From an uncultured Agathobaculum sp. (GTDB taxonomy: Bacteria; Bacillota; Clostridia; Oscillospirales; Butyricicoccaceae): a stretch of DNA of 64,000 bases. Made by a program: the position numbers and the translations under genes. The DNA is taken from positions 1-64,000 of the forward strand of contig NZ_CALWUQ010000003.1 of the NCBI RefSeq assembly GCF_944384695.1, in the 5' to 3' direction. Below the pieces are notes generated by a model. The model was not told where the DNA came from. It saw only the letters and a program-made list of their open reading frames with translations, and ran no database searches. Below, one piece after another: positions 31,395-38,276 of this stretch. How positions within the stretch are numbered: position 1 is the stretch's first letter; every line of letters begins with the position of its first letter.

Positions 31395-33326
31395 ATGAAT
31401 ATAAGCACCAATGGGTTGGTCTACACCAATGATAACTGTATCGGCTGCAACCGCTGTATCGCCGCCTGCCCGGTATTGACCGCCAATTCCGTAGTGGAAA
31501 ACGGCGAGAAGCAATTTGTTCATGTTGACCCCACCAAATGCATCGCCTGTGGCGCGTGTCTGGATGCGTGCGAGCATCATGCGCGTGAGTTTACCGATGA
31601 CACCGAACGTTTTTTTGCGGATTTGCGCCGCGGGGAGAAAATCTCCATTCTGTATGCGCCGGCGTTGGTTGCCAATTATCCGCAGAATTATCACTATATT
31701 TTGGGAACCTTGCAGCAGATGGGTGCAAACCATGTCATCAGCGTGGCGTTCGGCGCGGATATCACGACATGGGCATACATCCAGTACATCCAGAAGAACA
31801 AGTTTGAGGGCGGTATTTCCCAGCCCTGCCCGGCGGTGGTACGCTATATTGAAAACTTCATGCCGGAATTGCTGCCCAAGCTGATGCCGGTGCACAGTCC
31901 GCTGCTCTGTGCGGCAATCTATGCGCGCAAATACATGGGCATCAACGATAAATTTGCTTTCCTGTCTCCCTGCATTGCAAAGAAAGCAGAAATCAGCGAT
32001 CCCAATACGCACGGCTTTGTGCAGTATAATGTGACGTTCGATCATCTGATGCGCTACCTCAACCGGCATGGCATCAGTAAAACGCCGTTCAAGGAAGAAA
32101 TGGTGTCCGGTCTGGGCACTATTTATCCCATGCCCGGCGGCCTGAAAGAAAATGTCCGCTGGTTCTGCGGCGAGCAGGTTTTTGTACAGCAGATTGAGGG
32201 CGAGAAAAAGGTTTATGAAATGCTGCACAAGTATGCCAAGCGTGTAACCGGCGGCCGGACAGTGCCGTTTCTGGTCGATGTGCTCAACTGTGAAAATGGC
32301 TGCATCGACGGCCCGGCAATCGAAGAATCCAAGCGTGGAGACGATGCCATGCTGTATGCGATCAGTCAGCAAAAAGCCGAGCATCAGGCCAAAGGCAAAG
32401 GGCTTTGGAACGGTAAAAAAAGCTGTAGCGCGCGTTTGCGTATGCTCAACCGTGCGTTTTCCAAGCTCAAGCTCGAGGATTTTCTGCGGCAGTACACCGA
32501 CCGCTCACAGGAAAACCAGTTCCTTGTCCCGCAGGAGGAGCAGGTGCAGCAGATTTTCCGCAGCATGGAAAAGCACACAGCGGAGGAGCAGTCTATCAAC
32601 TGCGGCGCCTGCGGCTACTTGACCTGCCGGGAAATGGCGCAGGCGATTTTCAACCACTGCAACATTCCGCAGGGCTGCATCCATTACATCAAGCATGTGG
32701 TCGAGGCTGACAAGCAACAAATGGAGCGCATTTCGGAGGAAATCCGCGAAAAGAACCGCCAAATCCGTGAGATGGTGCAGGATGCCAACGGACAGTTCGA
32801 TATGCTGACCGGTTCAATCGCCAGTATGGCCGAGCAGAATGCCAATACAGCGGATGAAAGCGTGGGTATCAATGAATCCATGCAAGAGGTGGTCGAATGC
32901 ACCACAAAAATGAGCGAAGTTGTCGAACAAATCAACGGCCTGCTGCATGCGCTGGAGCAAAACAACAATGGCATCGAGCGGGTCGCCAGCAACACCCATC
33001 TGCTTGCGCTCAATGCCTCGGTCGAAGCGGCGCGCGCGGGCGCGGCCGGCAAGGGATTCGCCGTCGTGGCCCATGAGGTGCGTTCGCTCAGCCAGTCCAC
33101 GCAGGAGACGGCGCGCGAGAGCAATCGGAACAAGGCTCAAATCAGCACGGTACTTAAACTGATTACAGAAGATGTGGAGCAGCTGCGCAAGATCGCGCTC
33201 GACGTCAACGAGCGTTTGAGGAATCTGGCAGCAAGCAACGAAGAAATTGCTGCGGCGGCGCAGCAAATCAATCAGGCCACCAATCAACTGCATACGTATT
33301 TCCAGAATCTCAGTCAGATGGAATGA
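31395..33326 (+). CDS. [FeFe]-hydrogenase-like protein fused to a chemotaxis signalling domain
   Basis: A 643-residue cytoplasmic protein with no membrane helix. Residues 15-59 bind two [4Fe-4S] clusters ([24 protein letters not shown]). Residues ~80-370 form an H-domain: Cys145 (QPCP), Cys193 and Lys196 (SPCIAK), Cys299 and Cys303 (NCENGC) match the four cysteines and lysine around the H-cluster, but the proton-transfer Cys of TSCCP and the Met of MPC are replaced. Residues 403-428 are a further Fe-S motif (CGACGYLTC). From ~440 a coiled coil leads to an MCP signalling domain with [20 protein letters not shown]. It is probably a redox or H2 sensor acting on CheA and not a working hydrogenase. 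Confidence 0.88.
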
Positions 33327-33501: not shown

Positions 33502-34491
33502 TTACGCTTGGGAAATGCAGAAATGCTTTCGGAATTCCTCGGCCGGGACCGGCTTGCTGTAATAGTAGCCCTGACCATAATCACAGTGCATGGAGCGTAT
33601 CATATCTTCGCTCTCCTTGGTTTCTACCCCTTCTGCAACCGTCCGCATGCCCAGCTTTTTGGCCAGTGCCAGAATAGAAGCGAGCACCTCGCTTTGCGCG
33701 CCGTTGCGCTCTTTGATTACATCGGATAAAAACATCCGGTCCAATTTCAGTTCATCAATTTTCAATTTCCCCAGTGTGTTCAAGGAGGAGTAGCCGCTGC
33801 CGAAATCGTCCATGGACACACGGAACCCTGCGTCATTCAGATGTTTGATGGTACTGTTCAATGCCTCAATGTTTTCAAAGGCCAGACCTTCCAGAATCTC
33901 TAAAATAATATACCGCGGTGATATATTGTATTTTCTGGTAATGGCCAGCAGACTTTCTACATAATCTTCCTTGACAAACAGCGATTTGGTCTGGTTGACG
34001 GAAATGACAACAGGGGATATCCCGGCATCAATCCATGCGCGCAATGTTTTGCAGACCCGCTCCACCATGTATAAATCCAACTGCACGCAGAAGCCGTTTT
34101 CCTCAAAAAGCGGAATAAACTGATCTGGATAAATCATGCCGTGTCCCGTGGGCTGCCAGCGAACGAGCGCTTCCGCTCCGTCGATATGCCCCGTTTGGAG
34201 ATTCATCTTCGGCTGCAAATAGAGCTGATATTCCTCCTGATTGAGTGCGGACTGCATATGTGTTTCAATATAATAGCGCAGCTGCTCGTCCCGGTATAGG
34301 GATTCATCAAAAATATACACCTGATGGTTATTGACTTGCTTTGCATGGGCCAAAGCGACCATCATATAACTGATATTGGGGGAAACACGGTATGGCGATG
34401 GAGAATCCGCCATAAACACGGCCCCGGAATAAAGAGACAGGGGATGACCGTCCAGTGCGACCGTAACCGTTGTGATGATTTTGGAAAACAT
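33502..34491 (-). CDS. EAL-domain phosphodiesterase part of a frameshifted gene
   Basis: This frame holds the end of a GGDEF-fold domain and a complete EAL domain (from ~residue 75). The motif AEALVRWQ, the Asn/Glu segments VISVNQTKS and ILEILEGLA, and DDFGSGYSS are intact, so c-di-GMP hydrolysis to pGpG is plausible. It belongs to the same gene as 34533-36365: one missing base near 34561-34575 separates them, and in the corrected frame the sequence runs SADLFYFALKEQNAEHLISR into this ATG. The ATG at 34491 is therefore internal, with no clear ribosome-binding site. If the shift is real, only a separate or no EAL protein is made. Confidence 0.8.
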   Translation of the reverse strand: MFSKIITTVTVALDGHPLSLYSGAVFMADSPSPYRVSPNISYMMVALAHAKQVNNHQVYIFDESLYRDEQLRYYIETHMQSALNQEEYQLYLQPKMNLQTGHIDGAEALVRWQPTGHGMIYPDQFIPLFEENGFCVQLDLYMVERVCKTLRAWIDAGISPVVISVNQTKSLFVKEDYVESLLAITRKYNISPRYIILEILEGLAFENIEALNSTIKHLNDAGFRVSMDDFGSGYSSLNTLGKLKIDELKLDRMFLSDVIKERNGAQSEVLASILALAKKLGMRTVAEGVETKESEDMIRSMHCDYGQGYYYSKPVPAEEFRKHFCISQA

Positions 34492-34532
34492 ATCGTCCGT
34501 GCGTGAAATAAGGTGCTCCGCATTTTGCTCTT

Positions 34533-36365
34533 TCAGCGCGAAATAAAACAGGTCGGCGGAGGGCCTGCAAAAAACTCATCTTCGTGGATGCCGGATTCCA
34601 GCACGGACGTGATATCGCACAGCATATCGTCCGCCCGCTTGATGCCATAGGTATCGTTGATATACTTGAAGCCGCGGATGTTAAATGCGACCAATGCAAT
34701 TTTTTCGTGTTCCTGACAGCATTCCTCCAATAATTTGCGAAAATACGTTTCGTTGTACGCCCCTGTAATCCGATCATACATGCTCAAATGGATGAGACGG
34801 TTTTCTGTAAGCAGTGCGTTGTACGCGATATGCTTGCTTCGCAAATACATCAGCAGTGCCCCCACCAGCACAATGAGCACAAGGGAAAAAATCAAAATGA
34901 GCGGGCGGTGAACCGTCAGCCATTCCCAGAGCGTATAGTCGATGCTGTCACCGGAATAGTGATATAACATCTCCTGTTTGGCTTCATTGCTGATAGAGCT
35001 TGCGTATTGGTTGAGAATCGTTACAAATGCTTGCGGGACACTGCTTGTTACGCCGATGGAATAAGAAAAATCCCTGATATTCGTCCAGTCTACGATGATG
35101 TCATCGTAGACAACCTCTTTGCGGAGATAGTAGGACAGCGCGTAATAATCCGCCCGCATGGCATAATCTTCATTGGTTTGAATATCGTTCAGCGCCGCCT
35201 CGGTGTCGATGCGAAAGTCCAGATCGGTGGTATGCTCATGGGGCGCAGGATTGGTGCAGGCTGTTACGCTGAAGCTGTTGAAAAATGGAACGGTGAATCG
35301 AATGCCGCCGAGAGGGGCCAGCACGGAATTGGTCGCAACGCACCCTATCAAATCAACTTTGTCCTGCTGCACAAGTTGCAGGACTTCTTCGCGGGAGTGT
35401 GCAATGACCGGTTCGTATTGCAGGCCGGTAATGTCAGCGAAGCGTTTCAGATATTCCACGGCAAACCCGGTCAATTCCCCGTCCTTCATATATTGATATG
35501 GGGCGTCGCCGGTAAAAAACAGTACCTTTAAGGTGCCAAGCGAACGAATATACTCCCGATGCTCCTCGGAGAGCTGGAACGAATCGGTATGTCTGAAATG
35601 AAGATTGTATAACTCGGTTTGCAGGTTGGGTTGGGTGCTGTTCAATCCCCGCATCGCGGTATTGAGCTCCTGCAGCAAATCGGTATCGCCGGGAGCCAGC
35701 GCAAAATAATATGGCGCGGGTGAAAACCGCCCTACGATACGGAAATCATCGGTTAAAGAAATATCCGACTGAATCATGGCGTCAGCCTGTCCGCTCCGAA
35801 CGGCTTGAAGCATGTCCGCATAGCTGTCATATTGCTCTATTTCATAGGTGAAATCGTTTACTGCCGCATAATAGGCAAACTGCGATAGTTGCTCCTGATT
35901 GCCGGAAAACGCGGCAACACGGATGCCGTCCCAGCCGGAAAAATCTTCTTCAATCCAATTCGGGCTATCTTTCAAGACTGCCAGCACGGTATATCTCGTG
36001 CCGTAGCTGTAATTGGGATACAGGAATACATCTTCCAACTCGGCATTGCGATTCATCGTGCCGAGCATATCAATCTCGCCGTTTTGCAGCATGGTTGTCA
36101 GTGTTTCGAGCTGGGTGCTCAAATCTCCGTCCACCTGCACAAATTCAATATCCCAGTTGGTGAAGGACACGAGCTGATGCAGATAATCGACCAGATACCC
36201 GGCATAATCTCCGCGCTCATTGATATAGGAGGTGCCGGGCTGAATGGGGAACCCCACTTTCACCACATCACCTGTTTGTTCCGCAGCATTGGCTTTCCAG
36301 TCACCGCACGCAATTAGTACAATAAGGAATAGGAAAAACGCCTTTCTGATATATTTCATTTTCAT
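34533..36365 (-). CDS. Sensor part: two solute-binding domains, membrane helix, degenerate GGDEF (frameshifted)
   Basis: A signal peptide (residues 1-27) precedes two periplasmic amino-acid-type binding domains of the SBP_bac_3 family (~30-265 and ~270-480). A membrane helix (~505-525, LILIFSLVLIVLVGALLMYL) and a GGDEF fold starting LIHLSMYDRITGAYNETYF follow. The GGDEF signature reads HEDEF, so cyclase activity is unlikely. The frame then breaks near 34570 and ends in an unrelated PPPTCFISR tail. Restored, the gene encodes an external-ligand sensor controlling a c-di-GMP phosphodiesterase. The start at 36365 (MKMKYIRK) has a weak GGGCGGG site. Confidence 0.82.
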   Translation of the reverse strand: MKMKYIRKAFFLFLIVLIACGDWKANAAEQTGDVVKVGFPIQPGTSYINERGDYAGYLVDYLHQLVSFTNWDIEFVQVDGDLSTQLETLTTMLQNGEIDMLGTMNRNAELEDVFLYPNYSYGTRYTVLAVLKDSPNWIEEDFSGWDGIRVAAFSGNQEQLSQFAYYAAVNDFTYEIEQYDSYADMLQAVRSGQADAMIQSDISLTDDFRIVGRFSPAPYYFALAPGDTDLLQELNTAMRGLNSTQPNLQTELYNLHFRHTDSFQLSEEHREYIRSLGTLKVLFFTGDAPYQYMKDGELTGFAVEYLKRFADITGLQYEPVIAHSREEVLQLVQQDKVDLIGCVATNSVLAPLGGIRFTVPFFNSFSVTACTNPAPHEHTTDLDFRIDTEAALNDIQTNEDYAMRADYYALSYYLRKEVVYDDIIVDWTNIRDFSYSIGVTSSVPQAFVTILNQYASSISNEAKQEMLYHYSGDSIDYTLWEWLTVHRPLILIFSLVLIVLVGALLMYLRSKHIAYNALLTENRLIHLSMYDRITGAYNETYFRKLLEECCQEHEKIALVAFNIRGFKYINDTYGIKRADDMLCDITSVLESGIHEDEFFAGPPPTCFISR

Positions 36366-36899
36366 GCCCGCCCATCTTTCGTTCCTCTGTCCGCAATGAT
36401 TGCCAGTTTCCGATAGATAGTGCCAATGCTATTTTTGAAAGAAGCTGCATAAATGATTGCCGGAGAAAACATGCAATTGATTTCTCTATATTTATCATAT
36501 TACTCTCTTTCCGGCAAAAAGCAAGCAGGATTGGAATTTTTAAGCAATCATTTTTGCTTTGGAAGATATAGCGCCCAAGGGTTCGCTTTTGTTTTTCGGA
36601 TGCCCCTGTTCGCAGAGGGGATTATTGCACGCATGGAGAGGGATGGAAAAACTGTAAAATTACAGTTTGTTCACAAAAGGAGTAGAGAAAACACCAGCAG
36701 ATAATCAAGCCGCACAAAGTTTTTTTGTTTTTTGGTCAAATTTTTTGTGTTTTGGACTTGCTTATTTGGTGTAAGAAACAGTATAATCTATTTTGTAAGG
36801 CTGCGCCAAGGCACGGCCTTACAATTTCCTTTATGAAGATGGAGCCGCGCCCCCTCGGCGCAGGTTCTTCTTGCGCAAAAAAATAGAGAGGTGAAAAAC
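36366..36899. other. Intergenic region upstream of rnf
   Basis: This 534-bp stretch is AT-rich and holds the rnf promoter and leader. An 83-codon frame at 36453-36704 has no ribosome-binding site or recognisable sequence and I do not call it a gene. The leader has a GTAAGGC/GCCTTAC hairpin at 36795-36822. No riboswitch motif is recognised. Confidence 0.6.
36758..36787 (+). promoter_or_regulatory. Promoter of the rnf operon
   Basis: A consensus TATAAT (36782-36787) is preceded 18 nt upstream by TTGCTT (36758-36763). It lies about 105 nt before rnfC. Confidence 0.55.
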
Positions 36900-38276
36900 A
36901 TGGTGTATTCGTTCCGTGGCGGCATTCACCCCGGCACTCATGCAGATCCGGGTTACAAGGCCGCGACAAACACCAAGCCGATTGAGAAGCTGGCATTGCC
37001 CGATCAGGTCATTCTGCCGGTTTCCATGCACATCGGCGCCCCGGCCAAGCCGATTGTTTCGGTCGGTGATACCGTGGATCTGGGACAGCCCATCGCGGAA
37101 GCCGGCGGCTTTGTCAGCGCTCCTGTCCATGCAACCGTGTCCGGTAAGGTGAAGGCAGTGGAGCCGCGTCTGCATCCCAACGGCAGCAAAGTGCTGTCCA
37201 TTGTGATTGAAAACGACGGCGAGGACCGCCTGCACGAGTCTGTGCATCCGTATGATTTTGCTTCCATGTCCAATGAGGAGCGCATCGAGTGCATCCGCTC
37301 GGCCGGTATCGTCGGCCACGGCGGCGCAACCTTCCCGACCCACGTCAAGATCCAGTCCGGTATCGGCAAGTGCGACACGGTCATCATCAACGCGGCGGAA
37401 TGCGAGCCGTACATAACGAGCGACCATCGCCTGTTGCTGGAGCGCCCGGAAGAAGTGATCGGCGGTCTGAAGATGCTGGCCGACATCATGGGGGTACAGA
37501 ACGCCATCATCGCGGTGGAGGAAAACAAGTCCGACGCCTTCCCGGGCATCGAAAAGCTGATTGCGGACGACCCGCGCCTCAAGCTCTATCCTCTCAAGTG
37601 TAAGTACCCGCAGGGCGCGGAAAAGCAGCTCATCAACGCCTGCACCGGCCGTGAGGTCCCCTCCGGCAAACTGCCGGCGGACGCAGGCTGCGCCGTGTTC
37701 AATGTGGACACCGCCGGCGCGGTTTACCGCCGCTTTACCACCGGTATGCCGGTCATCCGCCGTATCGTGACGGTATCCGGCTCCGCCATTGCCGAGCCGA
37801 AAAACCTCGAAGTGCGCATCGGTACGCAGGTCGAAAAGCTGATCGACGCTTGCGGCGGCTTCAAGGAAGCCCCCAACAAGCTGCTGATGGGCGGCCCGAT
37901 GATGGGCGTTGCGCAGTTCTCGCTCGAAATCCCGATTTTCAAGGGCACCAATGCGTTCCTTGCCTTCTGCGGCGACGAGGATAAGCGCGTGGCCGACCCG
38001 CAGTGCATCCGCTGCGGCAAGTGCATCAATGCTTGCCCGATGCACCTGCTGCCGAACTACATGAACCTGTACGGCAAGAAGGACGATCTGGACAACGCGC
38101 TGGAGTGCGGCGTCATGGACTGCATCGAATGCGGCTCGTGCGCCTATGTCTGCCCGGCCCGCATCCCGCTGGTCGCGCAGTTCCGCCTGACCAAGGGCAA
38201 GATTCAGGCCAAGCGTGCGGCGGAAAAGGCCAAGGCGGATGCCGAAAAGGCTAAGGCTGAGGCCGAGAAGAAGTAA
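36900..38276 (+). CDS. rnfC: Rnf electron transport complex subunit C
   Basis: A 458-residue peripheral subunit that binds NADH/FMN and Fe-S. Seen: an N-terminal FRGGIHPGTHADP segment, the nucleotide loop GHGGATFPTHVK, INAAECEPYITSDHRLL, and two [4Fe-4S] motifs CIRCGKCINACP and CIECGSCAYVCP near residue 370-420. A lysine/alanine/glutamate tail ends the protein. I chose the ATG at 36900, six bases after AGAGAGGTG; a GTG at 36891 is inside that site. It opens the Clostridia-type rnfCDGEAB order. Confidence 0.96.
   Translation: MVYSFRGGIHPGTHADPGYKAATNTKPIEKLALPDQVILPVSMHIGAPAKPIVSVGDTVDLGQPIAEAGGFVSAPVHATVSGKVKAVEPRLHPNGSKVLSIVIENDGEDRLHESVHPYDFASMSNEERIECIRSAGIVGHGGATFPTHVKIQSGIGKCDTVIINAAECEPYITSDHRLLLERPEEVIGGLKMLADIMGVQNAIIAVEENKSDAFPGIEKLIADDPRLKLYPLKCKYPQGAEKQLINACTGREVPSGKLPADAGCAVFNVDTAGAVYRRFTTGMPVIRRIVTVSGSAIAEPKNLEVRIGTQVEKLIDACGGFKEAPNKLLMGGPMMGVAQFSLEIPIFKGTNAFLAFCGDEDKRVADPQCIRCGKCINACPMHLLPNYMNLYGKKDDLDNALECGVMDCIECGSCAYVCPARIPLVAQFRLTKGKIQAKRAAEKAKADAEKAKAEAEKK

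Follow-up and report, generated by a model that had tools for sequence, protein, structure and literature searches.

We describe a protein from an uncultured Agathobaculum sp. of the gut that joins an [FeFe]-hydrogenase-like domain (H-domain) to a chemotaxis transducer of the MCP type, and we refer to it as H-MCP. Our tentative reading, the best of those weighed here, is that of a cytoplasmic redox chemoreceptor that reports the low-potential electron state to a single CheA through an H-domain without the diiron part of the H-cluster. Hydrogenase–MCP fusions are already known as an idea (group C2 of HydDB), whereas the mismatch between hosts and maturases, an invariant proline in the pocket and the swapping of output domains are additions that we did not find in the literature searched.

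Architecture and active site of H-MCP

The window is the whole 64,000-nucleotide stretch of DNA that was analysed, and the features relevant here are as follows, all on the forward strand.

31395..33326, +: H-MCP gene, 643 amino acids (open reading frame from ATG to stop, Pfam; orthologues in relatives)
31437..31571, +: two N-terminal [4Fe-4S] motifs, C15/18/21/25 and C49/52/55/59 (Pfam; eight cysteines invariant in 78/78)
31653..32315, +: H-domain, residues 87–307 (PF02906; VIA Z 25–31 against solved [FeFe]-hydrogenases, model residues 1–373)
31821..31832, +: L1 motif QPCP, P144 = CpI C299 and C145 = C300 (CpI alignment; Q143, P144, C145 and P146 invariant in 78/78)
31965..31985, +: L2 motif SPCIAKK, S191 = CpI M353, C193 = C355 and K196 = K358 (alignment, conservation)
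32277..32303, +: L3 motif (10 protein letters, not shown), residue 295 = CpI E495, L297 = M497 and C299/C303 = C499/C503 (alignment, conservation)
32601..32678, +: C-terminal Fe-S motif Cx2Cx4Cx16C, C403, C406, C411 and C428 (PF04060; invariant in 78/78)
32679..33317, +: MCP signalling hairpin, helices 429–547 and 549–641, without a transmembrane segment (AlphaFold2 model, hydropathy, 3g6b closest in sequence among PDB entries)
36891..38276, +: rnfC, which opens the rnf operon (neighbouring gene, outside the receptor)

The original prediction of a hydrogenase-like domain fused to a soluble transducer, preceded by two ferredoxin clusters and with a further Fe-S motif ahead of the MCP domain, holds in every part: a single frame contains Fer4 families (residues 9–64), Fe_hyd_lg_C (87–307, E value 4.6e-30), PF04060 FeS (401–428, 3e-6) and MCPsignal (505–632, 4.5e-21), and the Pfam scan gave no PAS domain. 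An AlphaFold2 model (mean pLDDT 82, pTM 0.66; alignment A2, 52 sequences) groups residues 1–373 with [FeFe]-hydrogenases in Foldseek and VIA searches (Z 25–31 among the VIA rows shown, which cover none of the MCP half), and the solved structure nearest in sequence to the hairpin is 3g6b, an MCP. In the model, the tail Fe-S cluster is predicted to continue directly into the receptor hairpin, abutting the first MCP helix.

Alignment to CpI confirms that the H-cluster residues Cys145, Cys193, Lys196, Cys299 and Cys303 are kept (C300, C355, K358, C499 and C503 in CpI) and that the proton-transfer cysteine and the L2 methionine are replaced (C299 by P144, M353 by S191); the second pocket methionine, which the prediction had not named, is replaced as well (M497 by L297). 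Across 78 sequences, that is, the window and 77 of 80 loci (L076, L084 and L122, each shorter than 600 amino acids, were left out), every cysteine of the F-domain, H-domain and tail is invariant, as are P144, S191, K196, L297 and the Asp at residue 295, and the MCP tip core positions are conserved in all 78. By the CpI alignment and a pocket table, H-MCP falls outside the catalytic [FeFe]-hydrogenases, as it has neither the proton-transfer cysteine nor the pocket methionines. Across the clade that shares its module, this table shows C299 replaced by Pro (once by Leu), M497 by Leu and E495 by Asp, with K358 retained; L017 is the only row with Gly at M353. Judged from sequence, the clade-specific changes C299→P, M497→L, E495→D and A498→N are predicted to abolish the catalytic proton relay, while the conserved pocket residues A88, P89, P169, S191 and K196 suggest that the pocket is still occupied by something.

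Between the window and four close, HydG-less relatives, dN/dS is 0.05–0.08 overall and 0.04–0.07 in the H-domain, and an open frame kept under such constraint is not there by chance.

Relatives, swapped outputs and neighbourhood

A profile search of genome contigs with the family alignment returned at least 559 relatives among 590 pattern matches, the best 80 of which were kept as loci and come mainly from Lachnospiraceae, with some from Agathobaculum and Butyricicoccus. The same Fe-S/H-domain module is fused to GGDEF-EAL in one Pfam-scanned relative (L187:1822-4455) and to an HD_5 domain, which we take to be of the HD-GYP type, in another (L188:601-2571); in L184–L186 (Pfam scans of L184 and L186) it carries a second MCP type. 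The type-2 relative in Lachnospiraceae A4 (L184) adjoins cheC and a gene for a CheY-like receiver. In an H-domain tree of 43 rows, H-MCP and the GGDEF-EAL, HD and second-MCP forms all lie on one side of a 100/100 branch (length 2.79), with the PAS-type, group A and group B rows across it; long branches meet at the separating node, and L166 is absent from the tree owing to a motif filter. The HD row pairs with an H-MCP at 96/91.

In 2016, HydDB (PMC5037454) defined a group C2, 'chemotactic (putative)', and, in its available text, proposed H2 sensing through MCPs. H-MCP shares the link between an [FeFe] H-domain and an MCP, here as a fusion, and its placement in C2 is by description; it differs in that its hosts mostly lack HydG and HydF and that its module also occurs in GGDEF-EAL and HD fusions. 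According to the accessible part of an acetogen survey, C2 candidates were set aside there after checks, which for [FeFe] enzymes amounted to an H-domain motif test. Excerpts of PMC8163306 show that group C and D HydS proteins carry the same Cx2Cx4Cx16C motif and that TamHydS is active with the M353S and M497L exchanges. Like H-MCP, this group D/M2e protein, as far as those excerpts go, combines an H-domain with two N-terminal clusters and a Cx2Cx4Cx16C tail, lacks PAS and has M353 replaced by Ser and M497 by Leu, but it has Ala rather than Pro at C299, Glu rather than Asp at E289 (which we equate with CpI E495) and no MCP tail. Group D/M2e is marked by Ala at C299 together with this Glu; in the H-MCP family these positions are Pro in 78/78 and Asp (residue 295) in 78/78. 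The group C/M2f TmHydS of the PAS type has an F-domain, an H-domain and a C-terminal Fe-S motif in common with H-MCP, which differs in lacking PAS (found in both PAS-type rows scanned, 2 of 10) and in lying across the 100/100 branch. Among solved structures, the MCP half is closest in sequence to the soluble MCP 3g6b/3g67, but the H-MCP hairpin instead carries the Fe-S/H-domain sensor. In the text available to us, the work on TamHydS and TmHydS (groups D and C) does not include an MCP case, and a rumen study proposes that a group C enzyme of the PAS type senses H2 in R. albus.

The Rnf operon lies as close to H-MCP as predicted (3.5 kb): rnfC, on the downstream side, begins at 36891 after a gap of 3.56 kb. 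Three close relatives (L012/L074, L013/L079 and L014) have rnfC directly after the H-MCP gene, on the same strand and across a gap of roughly 0.36 kb in L074 (6377-6737) and L079 (7932-8288), whereas adjacency was not seen in five other genomes, some with short flanks (L015, L016/L075, L017/L076, L077 and L078). Between H-MCP and rnfC in the window, the minus strand (33502-36365) encodes a solute-binding/GGDEF protein and a separate EAL protein that together resemble a single gene interrupted by a frame break; a search of twelve relative loci, some of which have short flanks, gave no match to this pair. A block that includes genes resembling, by eye, those for aspartokinase and homoserine dehydrogenase is found near H-MCP in 21–35 of the best 80 loci, and among the clusters listed for these 80 no hydrogenase- or che-like conserved neighbour stood out.

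CheA and the maturases in host genomes

The genome of the window (G000; 1.97 Mb, 97.5% complete) encodes six MCPs and one CheA, so that the proposed link to a Che pathway finds its partners; a seventh PF00015 match shares a 673-residue frame with another match. H-MCP has no membrane-type segment and 94 residues past the tip, whereas the remaining five MCPs contain such segments and extend 130–199 residues past it. Surveying genomes for CheA, as had been suggested, we found it in 53 of 55 distinct hosts (48 of 50 named hosts, plus G000, G006, G018, G021 and G068). These 55 comprise the 50 named hosts, for which 50 of the 80 loci were used, and those five genomes, with G087, G088, G089 and G092 counted as G016, G044, G029 and G009 because of identical coordinates and sizes. 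The two hosts in which CheA was not found, G009/G092 and G016/G087, are both 1.7 Mb MAGs. Within the family, 7 of 9 H-MCP hosts have CheA compared to 20 of 78 others (one-sided Fisher p = 0.003, uncorrected for kinship).

HydG and HydF were scored with TIGR03955 and TIGR03918 against their cut-offs. Neither exceeds it in G000, and both are missing in 36 of the 55 hosts, G000 among them; of the 50 named hosts, the same 18 have both and 32 neither; among the latter, Lachnospiraceae A4 and 28-4 are records of isolates. A divergent HydG in G000 was considered and rejected: the single HydG-model match there (194 bits, model positions 37–389 of 470) sits beside a gene that looks thiamine-like by eye, and we take it to be ThiH. 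Among the family genomes, HydG is over the cut-off in 39/87 and HydF in 39/87 (slightly different sets), whereas PF02906 matches in 83/87. HydE was judged solely by cross-hits of the HydG search, and its likely hits (about 45–80 bits) fall in genomes with a true HydG. Genomes of genus g3 among G031–G042 encode a second HydF-like protein (228–285 bits, below the cut-off), several of them alongside a HydF above it. Acetogens without detectable HydG are reported in the available part of PMC9431212; maturation, HydE, HydG and maturases go unmentioned in PMC12578642, on gut group B hydrogenases, and likewise in PMC12773636.

On a tree of the host proteins, built from alignment A2 by a quick method (52 rows, from 46 of the 80 loci and six others; 18 with HydG, 34 without), the HydG state changes at least seven times by starred branches and a minimum of nine times on the tree as drawn. 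As the ligands stay fixed through these switches and the H-domain dN/dS is 0.04–0.07 among the HydG-less close relatives, the constraint on H-MCP does not track HydEFG.

Catalytic hydrogenases do not follow the maturases either. Group A-sized matches (hand count, rows above 290 bits) occur in 16 of 32 HydG-less and 6 of 18 HydG-bearing hosts, and the 30 catalytic loci listed keep the TSCCP, PC..KK lysine and MAC/MTC..GC motifs whether or not HydG is present, apart from minor deviations in L154 and L161. The second hydrogenase gene of G000 belongs to group B (628 bits to TIGR04105). Besides the HydG-less hosts, canonical group A/B genes occur without HydG or HydF over the cut-off in G001:C2 (L189, L242) and G000:C1 (L009, L193), and G001 is a two-contig genome that is 100% complete. 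Such canonical pockets imply either that all these enzymes are apo or that they mature by another route. When open reading frames were clustered across 55 stretches around catalytic hydrogenases (34 HydG-less, 21 HydG-bearing), no gene family specific to the HydG-less neighbourhoods emerged as an alternative maturase: the only HydG-less-only cluster among those listed spans 4 loci and could not be assigned to a kind, and mixed clusters occur in both sets.

What the H-domain may sense

The original prediction offered a sensor of H2 or of ferredoxin redox state. The ferredoxin option stands, but the H2 option is weakened by the missing HydG and HydF in G000 and most hosts, and the proposed co-purification with HydEFG would rely on machinery that G000 appears to lack. 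The H-domain probably holds the [4Fe-4S] part of the H-cluster without the diiron part, and H-MCP may sense the electron state of the cell and not H2 gas. Electrons from ferredoxin, or from Rnf-linked carriers, would enter the two N-terminal clusters and pass to the H-domain cubane; the MCP hairpin would be altered by a change at this cubane or at the C-terminal cluster and would in turn shift CheA activity, in whichever direction the response runs. The part of the C-terminal cluster in signalling is uncertain, since that of TamHydS is unresponsive to H2 in the available text of PMC13104023. This redox reading is favoured by the missing HydG and HydF, a constraint that does not track them, the exchanges predicted to abolish the proton relay, the association with CheA, the conserved MCP tip and the A4 relative beside cheC and a cheY-like gene, and weakened by the canonical hydrogenases that persist in HydG/HydF-less genomes, the conserved pocket residues, the two hosts without CheA and the indirect scoring of HydE.

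A true H2 sensor, in which a full H-cluster assembled independently of HydEFG (or with its help in the hosts that have it) binds H2 and signals through the MCP to CheA, is possible but has the lesser claim. The four cysteines and K358 are invariant, H2 sensing is what the accessible HydDB text proposes, M353S and M497L are shared with the active TamHydS in the excerpts of PMC8163306, and the retention of canonical catalytic hydrogenases where HydG is missing implies some form of maturation. Against it stand the 36 of 55 hosts without HydG and HydF, the dearth of any HydG-less-specific gene family near catalytic hydrogenases and the Pro at C299 where groups C and D, in the sources as available, usually have Ala. 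In C. thermocellum, moreover, hydG acts as the maturase of all three [FeFe] hydrogenases, and a hydG ech double deletion gives no detectable H2, as stated in the part of PMC4355364 at hand.

That the hairpin bypasses CheA, the module feeding another output as in its GGDEF-EAL and HD relatives or merely dimerising, is a good deal less plausible: sister modules with other outputs, a hairpin that is short next to those of the five membrane MCPs and the two CheA-less hosts speak for it, but the tip core is conserved in 78/78 and CheA is present in 53/55 hosts. A decaying hydrogenase relic, as a patchy distribution might hint (orthologues of at least 65% identity in 8/87 family genomes, one split over two contigs), is scarcely credible given the low dN/dS, the invariant ligands and the at least 559 relatives.

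A broader and somewhat unlikely extension of the H2-sensor reading is that an undiscovered H-cluster route in HydEFG-less gut Clostridia serves group A and B enzymes as well as H-MCP; H-MCP would then be a genuine H2 chemoreceptor, with a module that acts as a general H2/redox sensor for Che, GGDEF-EAL and HD outputs.

The 'H2-sensing' label of group C2 had rested on sequence alone, and the known H-cluster machinery is missing in most of the carriers examined. Either the H-domain became a diiron-free redox sensor for chemotaxis and c-di-GMP-type outputs, or another maturation route operates in common gut bacteria.
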